Positions 10,401 through 28,878 of a stretch of 33,137 nucleotides of DNA are shown here, piece after piece; position 1 is the first letter of the stretch, and each line of letters begins with the position of its first letter. This DNA comes from Halobacterium sp. CBA1126 (GTDB lineage: Archaea; Halobacteriota; Halobacteria; Halobacteriales; Halobacteriaceae), in contig NZ_WPCF01000018.1 in NCBI RefSeq assembly GCF_009741975.1, forward strand, positions 1 through 33,137, written 5' to 3'. A program made the position numbers and the translations under genes. The notes beneath the pieces are model-generated. The model had not been told where the DNA came from. It did not search any database and saw only the letters and a list, made by a program, of their open reading frames with translations.

Positions 10401-11099
<699 letters not shown>

Positions 11100-11120
11100 A
11101 TCCAAACGCACCGATGCAGC

Positions 11121-11138
11121 CCGTATAAAAGTATACGA
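11121..11138 (-). promoter_or_regulatory. TATA promoter of the lipoprotein gene
   Basis: The minus strand reads CGTATACTTTTATACGG, an AT island in GC-rich surroundings. Its TTTATA lies about 25-30 bp before the ATG at 11099, the spacing expected for a nearly leaderless archaeal transcript. It gives the lipoprotein expression independent of the late operon. Confidence 0.7.
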
Positions 11139-11172
11139 CAGTGACAAGACACCGCGCCACAGTCCCAGCGAG

Positions 11173-18194: not shown

Positions 18195-18590
18195 ATGAAC
18201 CGACGCCGCTTCCTCGCGACCACCGGCACTGCTGGCCTCCTCGGGCTCGCTGGCTGCAGTAGTCTCCCCGGAATGAACTCCTGCTCAGGCACACCAGAGT
18301 ACGACTACGAATGGCAAGCGGAGGGCTTCGTCGGACGCGGCTTCGAGCCAACGATAATCCTCACAGGGAGGATCGAAAGCCAGTCAGACAACTGCAGTCT
18401 GGACGAAGTCGAAGTGACCGCCGACGTCCTCGACTCCAGTGGGTCCGAGATCATGTCAAAGTCCACTATCGTCCGCCAAATCGCTCCGCGAGATGAAGAG
18501 AAGTTCATCATCTGGTTCTATCCGAGCCAGAATGAGGTAGACCGCGTCGATGGCTATCATGTGTCGGCGGAGGTTCCGGACTCGGACTAG
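18195..18590 (+). CDS. Tat lipoprotein inserted in opposite orientation in the tail operon
   Basis: A 131-aa lipoprotein. The N-terminus has a twin-arginine signal (NRRRFLATTG) and a lipobox LAGC with Cys21, so it is probably exported folded and lipid-anchored, as is common in haloarchaea. The mature part is a small beta domain (PTIILTGRIESQSDNCSLDE, then EVTADVLDSSGSEI). It reads against the late operon and its stop overlaps the tape-measure stop. With its own promoter it is a typical moron; a surface exclusion role is inference. Confidence 0.85.
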   Translation: MNRRRFLATTGTAGLLGLAGCSSLPGMNSCSGTPEYDYEWQAEGFVGRGFEPTIILTGRIESQSDNCSLDEVEVTADVLDSSGSEIMSKSTIVRQIAPRDEEKFIIWFYPSQNEVDRVDGYHVSAEVPDSD

Positions 18591-19753
18591 AGCCGGCTTG
18601 GCATCTCCTCGCGAAGCTGCGTGAGCACCTCGTGTTTGATATCCGGCGCAATACTATCCATCTCCCCACGGATCGCATCCTCAAGCGCTCGCCCACTCTC
18701 GATCTGTGCACGGATCTCCTGGACCTGCACATCAACGCGCGTCTCCGAGCCCGACGTCGACCCCGACTGCTGGCGGTCACGGATCGTATCCTTGCGTTGG
18801 CTTGCCCGCCACGCACGATCCCCAGAGTCGTAGGCGCTGGCGCCGGACGTCTGGCTAGGGCCCTGACTGGGATCGTAGTCGCCGTACGTCGCGCCGAGCC
18901 TCGACGACTTCTGCTGGGACCCGGGCGTGTTCGCGGACTGCGGCTGATCCGTCGAGTCACCTGGTGCATCACCCCATGACGGGTCGTTGGTTCCGCCACC
19001 GCCGCCACTCCCGGGGAGGATGCCAGACCAGAAGCCATCCGGTGGGCTCAGGTCGAACCCCCAGAGGTCATCCGGTGGACTGAGGTCGACGCCCCACAAG
19101 TCCTGTGGCGGGCTAAGATCGACGCCCCAGAGATCATTCGGTGGACTGAGGTCGACCCCCCAGAGGTCGTCGGGCGGGCTCAAATCAACATTCTCCCACA
19201 TCCCAGACAACCCCTGCCATTCGGGCGGTTCCCAGTCGATTCGACTGCCAACTGTATGCTCGACCATCCCCGGCAGTCCACTACTGACGTTCTCCTTCAC
19301 TCCCTCCGCGTCTTCGCCAACGTACTGGTCGGCTAGGAACGCCGAGCCGCCGATGCCGAGCCCGGCGATGCCTGCCGTACCCAGACTCGCGCCGCCCAAA
19401 ACCGACGCGGCGAGCCCGCCACCGCCACCGGTGAGCGCGCTCCCGATGGCGACACCGCTCGTCCCGTCGAGCAGCCCGCCGCTGCTCTCACTACCACCGC
19501 CGAAGCCGCCCGACGTCCCGATCTTCTCAAGTTCCTGGTGGATGTCGTGGAGGATGTCTGTCTGGTCGCCGAGCTCGTCGAGGGCGCCGGCACCGCCAGC
19601 AAGACTCGCCGTCGACCCACTACTGCCGGGGCCGCCTTGGGCTGCGTCGACGTCGATGGTGACGTCCCCGATTGATTGCTCGAGGTCTCGCTTCGCTTCT
19701 CGTTTCTCGCGGTCCGGAATGCGAATGCCGGACTCAATAGTGAAATCCGTCAT
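18587..19753 (-). CDS. Tape measure protein with five 11-residue repeats
   Basis: A 388-aa protein following the tail chaperones. Residues 1-80 contain charged helices. Residues 80-145 are Gly/Ala-rich and hydrophobic (SVLGGASLGTAGIAGLGIGG), like the membrane-active part of tape measures. Residues 189-243 hold five copies of VDLSPPDDLWG-like units. The rest is Ser/Gln-rich with a final helix (RALEDAIRGEMDSIAPDI). It is short for the family, so a short tail is expected. The ATG overlaps the stop of the frameshifted chaperone. Confidence 0.78.
   Translation of the reverse strand: MTDFTIESGIRIPDREKREAKRDLEQSIGDVTIDVDAAQGGPGSSGSTASLAGGAGALDELGDQTDILHDIHQELEKIGTSGGFGGGSESSGGLLDGTSGVAIGSALTGGGGGLAASVLGGASLGTAGIAGLGIGGSAFLADQYVGEDAEGVKENVSSGLPGMVEHTVGSRIDWEPPEWQGLSGMWENVDLSPPDDLWGVDLSPPNDLWGVDLSPPQDLWGVDLSPPDDLWGFDLSPPDGFWSGILPGSGGGGGTNDPSWGDAPGDSTDQPQSANTPGSQQKSSRLGATYGDYDPSQGPSQTSGASAYDSGDRAWRASQRKDTIRDRQQSGSTSGSETRVDVQVQEIRAQIESGRALEDAIRGEMDSIAPDIKHEVLTQLREEMPSRL
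19025..19189 (-). repeat. Five 33-bp tandem repeats in the tape measure gene
   Basis: Five exact-length 33-base units encode 11-residue repeats: VDLSPPDDLWG, VDLSPPNDLWG, VDLSPPQDLWG, VDLSPPDDLWG and FDLSPPDGFWS. Spacing is constant while third positions differ, so the repeat is maintained at the protein level rather than being a fresh DNA duplication. Confidence 0.92.
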
Positions 19754-19908
19754 GACTGATAGTCCCGTAGCGGGTTGCTGAACTGGATGTGCTGGCTGAA
19801 GTGCATGATGTCGCTCTCACTCCACTCACGGACTTCCCGCGGGTCATGGCCTGCCTGAATTGCTGCCATGATGCCGTGCCGGAGGATGGCTTCGTGGCTC
19901 GGGTTCAT
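19750..19908 (-). CDS. Tail assembly chaperone, second frame (GT-like C-terminal part)
   Basis: A 52-aa open frame (MNPSHEAILRHGIMAAIQAG start) in the -1 frame relative to the gene at 19935-20420. The open frame continues upstream without a stop to the slippery heptamer at 19941-19947, so it can be made as a C-terminal extension (about 63 residues added after Leu160). A GGGGAGG two bases before its ATG could also allow some separate initiation, although the spacing is short. Its stop overlaps the tape measure ATG. This is the position of gpG/gpGT in lambda-like phages. Confidence 0.75.
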   Translation of the reverse strand: MNPSHEAILRHGIMAAIQAGHDPREVREWSESDIMHFSQHIQFSNPLRDYQS

Positions 19909-19934
19909 CGCCTCCCCGGCAGCCAACCGGCGCG

Positions 19935-20420
19935 TTACGACAAATTTTCGCTACTCAGGTCATTCAGGTCGGTGAGTTCGTCGTCGAGGAAGTCCTGCAC
20001 CGCCGGTGGGAGTGCGCCCGTCACCCGCGCGGCCTCCTCAAGATCTTCGCTGCCGTTGAGCCATGGCGCCGCCTGGAGGGCGGCGGCGAGCAGCCAGATG
20101 CGGGACTCCATCCCGCCGACGTCGCCCATCGTCGAGGACTGCATCTCGTCGAGCGCCCGGGCGCGTGTGGTCGCCGTGAACGCCTCCATGGTGATCGTGG
20201 CGTCCTCACCGAACTCTCCAATCGCCCAGTTGAGCGCGCGCTGTTTGCCCGCCGCATCCTCACGCTCCGACCGAGCATCCCGGAGCGCGGACTCCTGCGC
20301 GTCCTCGTCATCCTCGAGTTCGTCAACGCGTGCCTCGGCGTCGGCGAGCTCGGACTCGACGTCACCCTTGGCTTCTTCGAGCGTGAACGTTCTCGTGGGC
20401 GGGTAGTCGAAGTCAGTCAT
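19935..20420 (-). CDS. Tail assembly chaperone, first frame (gpG-like)
   Basis: A 161-aa acidic, helical protein. Residues 14-60 form a coiled coil (DVESELADAEARVDELEDD), and the rest is a helical domain ending LNDLSSENLS. It lies between the tail tube and tape measure genes, the conserved place of the tail assembly chaperone in long-tailed phages. Three codons before its stop is A-AAT-TTG, a canonical -1 slippery heptamer. The ATG overlaps the stop of the tube gene. Confidence 0.78.
   Translation of the reverse strand: MTDFDYPPTRTFTLEEAKGDVESELADAEARVDELEDDEDAQESALRDARSEREDAAGKQRALNWAIGEFGEDATITMEAFTATTRARALDEMQSSTMGDVGGMESRIWLLAAALQAAPWLNGSEDLEEAARVTGALPPAVQDFLDDELTDLNDLSSENLS
19941..19947 (-). 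promoter_or_regulatory. -1 ribosomal slippery sequence A-AAT-TTG
   Basis: In the zero frame the codons are GAA AAT TTG TCG TAA. The heptamer A AAT TTG fits X XXY YYZ. A -1 slip continues GTC GTA ACG into the downstream chaperone frame. Ten bases further down, CCGG-TTGGCTG-CCGG can form a short stem-loop that may stimulate slipping. Confidence 0.72.
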
Positions 20421-21322
20421 ACTGCCGGATCACTCCCCGTTACCGAGTGCCCGAGGAAGTTCACGGACTCCTGGAGGTCGTTGTCGGGGTTCACGAGGTC
20501 CTGCCAGTTGTACGTGTCCGGCGCGACGCCAGCGATGTCGTAGCTCGCGACCTCACTGCCGGCGACGTCGAACGTGAGTGACGCCGATACTTCGCCGACG
20601 TCCTGCTGGACGCTGGTTGCGCCACTGGAGCCGAGTGCGAGCGAGTACTGTTCGGGGCCGTCGTAGATGCTTGTGATGTCCACGGAGGTGGAGACGTTCC
20701 CGGTGACCGCGTCGACGGGCTTCTGGCTCGGCCCGAGCTGCAGTCGGGAGATGTTCTCGAAGCTCAGGGTCGCGGACTGCAGTTTCGTCATCGCGACGCC
20801 GTTGATGGTGAGGCTGGCGCCATGCCCGGGGACTTCGTCCCCCGTCTTCGAGATCGTGCCCGCGGTCAGGCTCGTGTTCTTGACCTCGTCGCCGTACGCG
20901 CCGGTCACGGTGACGCGAACCGTCTCGGTCGGGCCGTTGTACTGTATTTGGACGCTGGCTGGCGCCCAGCCTTTCAGCTGGCGTTCGGTCGTCGCGCTGC
21001 TGTAGTCGACGCCGAGGTAGACCTCCGCAGAGTTCGCGAGCCCACTCGTGAAGCCGGTGTTCCCGTCGTTGAAGATGAGGCGGTGGAACTCGTCGTTGGT
21101 GAGGATCCAGGAGATCGAGAGTTGCCCCTCGAGGTTCTGCGCGAGGAGCGCCTGCGTCTCTGGGTCGTTGGGTGCGTAGATTTCGAGGAGGTTCCGGGAG
21201 AGTTCGGCGTCCTCGACTTGGATGTTGCTGCCGGGTTCTCGGTAGGTTGGGTCGGTTGCGGTGCCGCCGAGGTAGCTGGTTTCGGGCGCCCACGCGACGC
21301 TTGCTGCGCCGGCGCCGGTCAT
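20417..21322 (-). CDS. Major tail tube protein
   Basis: A 301-aa beta-rich protein (MTGAGAASVAWAPETSYLGG start). The segments STSVDITSIYDGPEQYSLAL and EVSASLTFDV fit the strands of a tail tube fold. Position directly before the tail chaperones and tape measure supports the call. AGAGGT about nine bases before the ATG is a good ribosome-binding site. A 14-codon open frame ends on this ATG. No sheath gene is nearby, so the tail is probably non-contractile. Confidence 0.75.
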   Translation of the reverse strand: MTGAGAASVAWAPETSYLGGTATDPTYREPGSNIQVEDAELSRNLLEIYAPNDPETQALLAQNLEGQLSISWILTNDEFHRLIFNDGNTGFTSGLANSAEVYLGVDYSSATTERQLKGWAPASVQIQYNGPTETVRVTVTGAYGDEVKNTSLTAGTISKTGDEVPGHGASLTINGVAMTKLQSATLSFENISRLQLGPSQKPVDAVTGNVSTSVDITSIYDGPEQYSLALGSSGATSVQQDVGEVSASLTFDVAGSEVASYDIAGVAPDTYNWQDLVNPDNDLQESVNFLGHSVTGSDPAV

Positions 21323-26970: not shown

Positions 26971-28878
26971 TTAGATGTCGCTCGGGATGTCGTCCGGGAC
27001 GTCCTCCGGGTCGGGTGTCGGCCCCGACGGGAGGCGGTCGTGGAAGTTCGTCACCTCCAGGTAGGGATACTCGAGGCGGATGTTCGAGTAGTGGTAGCTG
27101 CCGTGACTCCCCGCGCTGTTCAACGCCGCCCACACCGACTGGGGGACGTCGACGTAGACGTACAGGGAGTTCTGGCCATCCGGCCGCTGAAACGACAGGT
27201 AGAGCTCCTGCGCCTCGAAGTCGTAGAGGCCTTCGTCGAGATTACTGGAGCTGAACGAGGTTTGCTCGATCGCGTCCTTTGTCTCCAGTTGGCTCTCGAC
27301 GACACTCCACTCGCGCTCCCCGATCTTCCGGTCCTCCGGGGGCGCGTCCACCGCACGCGACGCCTCCGTCTCCCCACCACCACCGCCGCCGCCACTGTCG
27401 CCGGCGACGTCGGCTTCGTACTCCGCGAGGGTCATGTCGCCGTACTCCTCGTTCGGCGGCAGCCCGAGCTCCTCGAGCGTCTGGTTGACCGTTGGCACAC
27501 CACTCAGGCGGTACGAGCGCACGCGACGCTCGGTGAGCTGTGCTTCCTCCTTCGGGTTGTTCGCGCCGCGGAGCTCGAAGTCGATCGTCCAGTCATCAAC
27601 CCCGAGCGCGGTCTGGTGGAGGATCTTGTACAGCCGCGCTTCGAACTTCGCCTGCTCCGGCGCGATGACACCCTCCGCGAACTCCTGAACTTGCGCCTCA
27701 GAGTTCGACCGGTTGCTCGTGCCGGTGACGTTGATGAGGATCGGGGGGACCTCGTGGACCTTCGCAATCTCGTGCTCGTTCCGTTCGCGGAACGCCTGGA
27801 ACTCCATGTCGTTGGAATCCGTCGCCCCGAGCGCCTCGAACTCGATCTCGACATCGCTCGGGTCGCCCTCCTTGAGGGGGTTGTCGTCTTCGAACTCGAA
27901 GCCCTCGACCTCGAGGATGGCCGTCCGGTACCGTTCACCCTTGAGGTTCTCCTGGAGGTCACGGAGTTCGTCCTTCGAGTCCTCGGTGAGCTTGCCGCCG
28001 TAGACTTTGACGGCGTAGTGGGGGATGCCGAGGTTGTCGAAGATGTCGTGGTTCCATTCCTGCGCGGCTTCGTCGGCGGCCATCGTCCGCATCGCCGCGA
28101 CGAAGTCCGGGATGCCGTAGTACAGACTGAGCGGACTGGGGTTCGGGACGAAGATGAGCTCGTTCGCCGGCCCGTTCTCAAGGTCGTCCGCCGAGGAGGC
28201 GACGTTGCCGTTCTCCTTGTCGACGAACGTCGGATCCTCGCCGTATCGGTCGCCGGCTTCTCCGAAGTACCGCCGGCGGCCCTGCCGGATTTGGACGTAG
28301 CCGTGCCCCGACTGAATCGCCTCGACCTCCTCGCCGTCCTCAGTCTCAGTGGTGGTCGTGGTCTTCCGGACGCGAACGGTGGTCGCCGGCACGTGTGCGA
28401 GACCAACGGGGCCGCCTTCGCCGTTCACGAGAATCTCCAGGGCGGCCCAGCCGACACCGTGGTAGTCGAGCCGGGAGAGCTCAAGCACCTCTTCCGGCGT
28501 CGACGTCGCCGTCCCCTCAGGACCGAGCTGCCACCTGGAGTCCGAGCCGCGCCAGAAGTCCTCGACCGTCTGGTAGGCGTCGCCCTCTGGGTCGGGGTCG
28601 TCCGCGCTCTGGTGGGGGACGATGTCGAAGCCGTACCCGACTTCGTAGCGGGCTTTCATGCGGAGGCACGCTTGGTGGGTCTCGTTGAGTTCTTGGAACG
28701 CCGCGAGGGTCTCGGGGTTGTACGGCGGGACGATGCCGCGGCCGACGTCGGTCGCGATGCGGCGTTCGTCGAGTTGCGTGGTTTCGCGTGCTTTCTCCAT
28801 CGCGCCCGTGTTGCCCTTGTCGAGGGAGGTGATGGACAGCGATACCTCACCGCCGCCGTCGTCAGCGTTGTCACTCAT
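26971..28878 (-). CDS. Portal protein with C-terminal KTSC domain
   Basis: A 635-aa portal forming the DNA entry ring of the head. The N-terminal half has the family pattern (GIVPPYNPETLAAFQELNE, MKARYEVGYGFDIVPH), the clip/wing region (NELIFVPNPSPLSLYYGIPD) and the stem helices with ISS-like KVHEVPPILINVTGTSN. A Gly-rich linker (about residue 490-500) leads to residues 538-610, which match the KTSC domain: SFSSSNLDEGLYDFEAQELY, then YVYVDVPQSVWAALNSAGSH and NIRLEYPYLEV. It follows TerL with five bases between stop and start regions. Confidence 0.88.
   Translation of the reverse strand: MSDNADDGGGEVSLSITSLDKGNTGAMEKARETTQLDERRIATDVGRGIVPPYNPETLAAFQELNETHQACLRMKARYEVGYGFDIVPHQSADDPDPEGDAYQTVEDFWRGSDSRWQLGPEGTATSTPEEVLELSRLDYHGVGWAALEILVNGEGGPVGLAHVPATTVRVRKTTTTTETEDGEEVEAIQSGHGYVQIRQGRRRYFGEAGDRYGEDPTFVDKENGNVASSADDLENGPANELIFVPNPSPLSLYYGIPDFVAAMRTMAADEAAQEWNHDIFDNLGIPHYAVKVYGGKLTEDSKDELRDLQENLKGERYRTAILEVEGFEFEDDNPLKEGDPSDVEIEFEALGATDSNDMEFQAFRERNEHEIAKVHEVPPILINVTGTSNRSNSEAQVQEFAEGVIAPEQAKFEARLYKILHQTALGVDDWTIDFELRGANNPKEEAQLTERRVRSYRLSGVPTVNQTLEELGLPPNEEYGDMTLAEYEADVAGDSGGGGGGGETEASRAVDAPPEDRKIGEREWSVVESQLETKDAIEQTSFSSSNLDEGLYDFEAQELYLSFQRPDGQNSLYVYVDVPQSVWAALNSAGSHGSYHYSNIRLEYPYLEVTNFHDRLPSGPTPDPEDVPDDIPSDI

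Follow-up and report, generated by a model that had tools for sequence, protein, structure and literature searches.

The DNA analysed here (the window) is 33,137 bases long and makes up an entire contig (C46); the assembly to which it belongs totals 2.73 Mb. Its kin are haloarchaeal viruses and genomes, among them the Halorubrum viruses BJ1 and CGphi46, Haloferax mucosum and Natrialba chahannaoensis. According to the list of open reading frames (ORFs) and to PHROG and Pfam matches, an integrase-like ORF lies at one contig end, and terminase, portal, capsid and tail genes are carried on the minus strand; the reading frames of the virion genes are open. No terminal repeats of at least 15 bases, a sign of a circular or complete genome, were found in the window. 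In the portal protein (26971-28878, minus strand), the portal domain is fused on its C-terminal side to a KTSC domain (Pfam PF13619, E = 1.1e-13). A small ORF on the opposite strand within the tail module (18195-18590, plus strand) carries a Tat-like lipoprotein signal, MNRRRFLATTGTAGLLGLAGCSS, and a predicted lipoprotein (LAGCSGG; 10401-11147, minus strand) with long Thr-Pro repeats is encoded directly after the tail genes.

The region of interest within the tail module contains the following features, given in the order of transcription with the basis for each.

20417..21322, minus strand: major tail (tube) protein (phrog_18409, E = 6.7e-66; relatives in BJ1, CGphi46 and HCTV-16)
19935..20420, minus strand: G frame, predicted tail assembly chaperone, 161-residue 0-frame product (ORF; PHROG 19457; AlphaFold and Foldseek)
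19941..19947, minus strand: slippery heptamer A_AAT_TTG (sequence; sole copy in the window; replaces G_GGA_AAC of relatives)
19750..19941, minus strand: T frame, a -1 open frame of 63 codons and a TGA, forming the C-terminal portion of a putative fusion (translation; dN/dS; shared motif)
19916..19930, minus strand: candidate stem-loop, CCGG-TTGGCTG-CCGG, which begins 10 nt downstream of the heptamer (no significant stability)
19906..19908, minus strand: ATG within the T frame, preceded at a distance of 2 nt by GGGGAGG (sequence; not conserved)
18587..19753, minus strand: putative tape measure protein, 388 residues (position after G and T; Trp repeated every 11 residues)

The gene that we term G ends with AGC GAA AAT TTG TCG TAA. 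The original prediction, made from the sequence alone, had described a gene before the tape measure ending in GAA AAT TTG TCG TAA and followed by a 63-codon -1 frame whose stop overlaps the tape measure ATG. Both descriptions are exact: the gene has 161 codons on the minus strand, and translation places the T stop codon (TGA, 19752..19750) across the ATG at 19753 of the next gene. The T frame protein runs VVTRRLAAGEAMNPSHEAILRHG...NPLRDYQS, and the predicted G-T fusion comprises 223 residues in total. The heptamer near the end of G was also called a textbook X_XXY_YYZ site. Its phase is right; the final base is G, which lies outside the usual -1 heptamer, in which a review allows Z to be any base but G (PMC8211752).

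PHROGs and the BJ1 record name the upstream neighbour of G a minor tail protein, and its HCTV-16 counterpart is called a tail tube protein. Downstream, the gene that follows T has four successive Trp spacings of 11 residues, and such spacing is typical of tape measure proteins. We therefore call it a putative tape measure gene, from its position and repeats. G thus sits between the major tail protein and the putative tape measure protein, as an arrangement of the lambda G/GT type requires. The 11-residue repeat LSPPDDLWGVD occurs in the putative tape measure proteins of the window (18587-19753, minus strand) and of its near relative L005 (3668-4888). Exact 11-residue Trp steps in the gene after T number four in the window, nine in L005 and none in BJ1; the difference between the window and L005 could alter tail length.

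In our effort to identify G, we considered both sequence families and predicted structure. PHROG 19457, a family that carries no function, was matched in all 53 relatives scanned, and a Pfam search of G and T gave no useful match. Weak, short matches to the same family in two genomes of the same genus (L003 and L004) were set aside. A confident AlphaFold model of G, built from an alignment of 53 G proteins (pLDDT 93, pTM 0.86), was compared by Foldseek with predicted viral structures. It matched the HCTV-1 tail assembly chaperone (E = 8.4e-4, probability 1.00, TM score 0.63), with weaker matches to predicted structures of chaperones from actinobacterial phages. Among solved structures, the HK97 chaperone 2OB9 ranked second with a weak match (E = 0.6). 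In its predicted structure, then, G has a tail assembly chaperone fold. Rows from VIA-align seemed to reflect coiled-coil similarity and were left aside.

Conservation of the heptamer and of the -1 frame

A tblastn search with the fusion protein against a phage collection returned no match even at E = 10, and relatives were therefore sought through the major tail protein. A search with the fusion protein yielded one near relative, L005 (IMGVR_UViG_3300018069_000018), which is 89% identical over G and T. With the major tail protein as anchor, we recovered many viral contigs, named genomes and 40 of the 392 genomes of the order. The survey covered 60 loci with enough sequence, the window included, and these have 58 distinct G ends; many of the loci are interrelated and hence do not represent 60 independent events. 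We excluded one locus in which the frame of the major tail protein is broken (L026), three at contig ends (L012, L024 and L072), copies of BJ1 and CGphi46 (L021 and L023) and a false match (L107).

A homologue of G immediately follows the major tail protein gene in all 60 loci. Conservation of the heptamer in homologues had been proposed as a check on the original prediction, and 57 of the 60 loci carry an in-frame X_XXY_YYZ heptamer, followed by a -1 frame that stays open for 46 to 70 codons. The heptamer is GGGAAAC in 53 of these, GGGAAAT in two, AAAAAAC in one and AAATTTG in one, the window. A second search added three loci, with GGGAAAT, AAAAAAT and GGGAAAC. The three exceptions in the survey are distant relatives (L068, L069 and L070) that have no heptamer, yet keep the -1 frame open over the G end, so that no homologue in the survey lacks both features. 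These three have a T5 run, GAT_TTT_T, at the spot where a slip would be needed, and its use as a slip site is a guess. The stop codon of T overlaps an ATG or GTG in 30 of the 57 loci, as it does in the window; in 55 of them one of these two codons occurs no more than 18 nt from the stop, which is weak evidence on its own as such triplets are common.

The T frame itself is, by its pattern of substitution, protein-coding and under purifying selection. Over its 63 codons the window and L005 differ by 18.8 synonymous and 11.2 nonsynonymous changes, giving a dN/dS of 0.12. The corresponding value for G is 0.17, and reading the T DNA in the two remaining frames gives 2.1 and 2.9. Diverse T frames also have in common a motif around GHDPREVR (G-H-D-P-R-E-V-R-x-W).

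Chance is a poor account of the heptamer's placement in the window. AAATTTG has a single copy there when both strands are counted, and 0.27 copies would be expected. Because a TAG in the -1 frame stands immediately upstream, a slip could enter the open frame over just 13 nt. Elsewhere in 60 related genes, canonical heptamers occur in frame six times in 10,343 codon positions (0.058% per codon), and the chance of an in-frame heptamer at the roughly four positions of the eligible stretch is about 0.2% at this background rate, or about 1.6% with equal base frequencies.

Gene order, frame geometry, the heptamers of some 60 relatives, selection on T and the fold match of G all fit the original proposal of frameshifting of the gpG/gpGT type, and support it. 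On this sequence evidence, the locus very probably belongs to a BJ1-like siphovirus or provirus of haloarchaea and encodes its G/GT pair of tail assembly chaperones, joined by a -1 slip at A_AAT_TTG. The mechanism that we infer, including the slippage itself, its frequency and the roles of the G and GT products, would run as follows. The majority of ribosomes would terminate at TAA to yield G, and a minority would shift back one base at A_AAT_TTG, where the Asn and Leu tRNAs would re-pair on AAA and TTT. The ribosomes that slip would produce the 223-residue G-T fusion as a longer version of the chaperone. By analogy with lambda, G would coat the tape measure protein and the fusion would recruit the tail tube protein.

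Could the polymerase, rather than the ribosome, be the slipping machine? The four-A run in GAAAATTTG and the T5 run in the three distant relatives would suit transcriptional slippage. Runs of three to four bases are short for a polymerase slip, however, and the near-universal G_GGA_AAC suits tandem tRNA slippage and not a homopolymer mechanism. We give this explanation next to no weight.

Internal initiation and RNA signals

T might instead be made as a separate protein, either by initiation at the internal ATG (19908) that follows GGGGAGG, an alternative raised in the original prediction, or by re-initiation past the G stop codon. The sequence elements are real, in that the T frame of the window does hold an ATG preceded by a purine-rich stretch, and a deeper ATG (codon 25) is common to the window and L005. 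Against this, GGAGG stands only 2 nt from the ATG, which is short for a Shine-Dalgarno (SD) sequence, and the start is private to the window: the ATG at 19908 is ATC in L005 and L014 and is absent in L009. The conservation shared by the window and L005 (TRRLAAGEA) starts 5′ of this ATG. An ATG occurs within the first 25 codons of T in only 14 of the 57 loci, and the whole T frame of three relatives (L041, L043 and L049) is devoid of ATG, GTG and TTG. Because these three have no start codon there, their sequences indicate that internal initiation cannot be the general route to T. A separate T protein would, moreover, leave the conserved heptamer without explanation, and we judge it quite improbable.

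Programmed slippage by the ribosome, the reading that we prefer, could be aided by signals in the surrounding RNA; stimulatory structures are common at such sites, although slippage does not require them. A stem-loop ten bases downstream of the heptamer had been put forward as a candidate; the sequence is present, and its predicted stability does not exceed that of shuffled sequences in the window (z = -0.15, -0.07 and +0.15, and -0.82 in a separate run). As a stimulator it has no statistical support in the window. A consensus fold of six members of the clade gave a weak stem without covariation support, and the same stretch doubles as code for the conserved RRLAAGE. Across all members, the 50 nt that follow the heptamer are somewhat more structured than shuffled sequences (mean z -0.78, standard error 0.19, compared with +0.15 for an upstream control), and some members may therefore have a stimulatory structure. 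SD-like sequences, another possible stimulator, are found upstream of the heptamer in 12 of the 57 loci, compared with 14% of control stretches, and thus show no clear excess.

An altered and shifted candidate slip site

The near relatives of the window (L005, L009, L014, L015 and L016) all have G_GGA_AAC, either abutting the G stop codon or one codon before it. When L005 (GGGAAACTCG) and the window (CGAAAATTTG) are aligned without gaps, the GGG is gone from the window, the AAA is retained and CTC has become TTT. A_AAT_TTG accordingly lies 3 nt, or one codon, downstream of the position of G_GGA_AAC in the relatives and reuses its AAA, which would have switched from the A-site to the P-site triplet if the relatives indicate the direction of change correctly. 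The A-site codon is Asn AAY in every other relative with a heptamer and Leu UUG in the window. We consider it reasonably likely that the slip site was relocated, the ancestral G_GGA_AAC having been lost and a chemically different A_AAT_TTG having arisen one codon downstream. If so, selection maintains the frameshift and not its sequence, and haloarchaeal ribosomes accept both Leu UUG in the A site and G at position Z.

The codons AAT and TTG are used 5.4 and 5.9 times per thousand in the virion genes, and the AAT/TTG pair is therefore rare in this genome. The tRNA genes of the host assembly, read locus by locus, include those for tRNA-Asn(GUU), tRNA-Leu(CAA) and tRNA-Leu(UAA). By ordinary pairing rules, the Asn and Leu tRNAs would each keep two pairs after the slip and be mispaired at the third position; given these mispairs and the G at Z, slip efficiency may be low. 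As the DNA comes from an assembly, there is also a small chance of a sequence error at the site.

The same observations could mean that an ancestral frameshift was lost in the window, with G_GGA_AAC decayed and A_AAT_TTG a chance leftover in a decaying provirus. All near relatives retain the ancestral type of site that is gone from the window, and the new heptamer carries G at Z and lacks a structure. Purifying selection on the T frame nevertheless persists (dN/dS 0.12), the virion genes are open, and a new heptamer would arise in frame within 13 nt by chance in only about 0.2 to 1.6% of cases. Loss is consequently an unlikely explanation, and a working, relocated site remains our preferred one.

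Relation to known frameshift systems

The closest bacterial parallel drawn here is lambda gpG/gpGT (G_GGA_AAG; details from PMC5009743 and general knowledge), which shares with the window the position between tail tube and tape measure genes, the -1 direction and a heptamer at the G end. The window differs in its heptamer, A_AAT_TTG, and its link to lambda-like chaperones is by position and by the weak HK97 fold match (2OB9). Among archaeal viruses, the Haloarcula viruses HCTV-1, -2, -5 and -16 and HVTV-1 have archaeal hosts, an upstream tail tube relative and an annotated or predicted -1 frameshift. HCTV-1 encodes the chaperone whose predicted fold resembles that of G. HCTV-16, a member of the Druskaviridae and distant from the window, has G_GGA_AAC, and its chaperone record is annotated with a putative -1 frameshift. 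Hardycor1, also a haloarchaeal siphovirus, carries a -1 slippery sequence close to where the gene preceding the tape measure ends; its predicted site is G GGA AAT, compared with A_AAT_TTG in the window, and the two are likened by arrangement (PMC7911831).

Nearer to the window, L005 shares its closely similar G and T and a matching stop/start overlap with the tape measure gene, and differs in having G_GGA_AAC one codon upstream and ATC in place of the internal ATG. BJ1 and CGphi46 (Graaviviridae) share the gene order, G and T, the major tail protein (33%) and an in-frame G_GGA_AAC. They differ in heptamer type and in the G stop codon, which lies 69 nt past the heptamer compared with 3 in the window.

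The original prediction noted that programmed -1 frameshifting is rarely documented in archaea. This holds for demonstrated cases, which amount to one gene, a Saccharolobus fucosidase (PMC8211752), and the novelty is less than implied, since halovirus chaperone cases had been predicted before: passages of PMC5009743 and PMC8211752 cite predicted -1 frameshifts in the tail chaperones of HVTV-1 and HCTV-1, -2 and -5. Predicted frameshifts of this kind in haloviruses are thus already known, and the window adds another case; what is new is the breadth of conservation across the BJ1-like group and the relocated A_AAT_TTG site. For frameshifting in haloarchaeal viruses there have been predictions only so far, and some 60 natural sites, among which one heptamer dominates and a few, the window's included, are clear variants, constitute a ready test set for slipping by haloarchaeal ribosomes.

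The T part of the chaperone is absent from the annotations of BJ1 (L006, 7413-7515) and CGphi46 (L007, 2557-2659), where the T frame is left unannotated between G and the next gene, and it is probably absent from many annotations of haloarchaeal proviruses as well.
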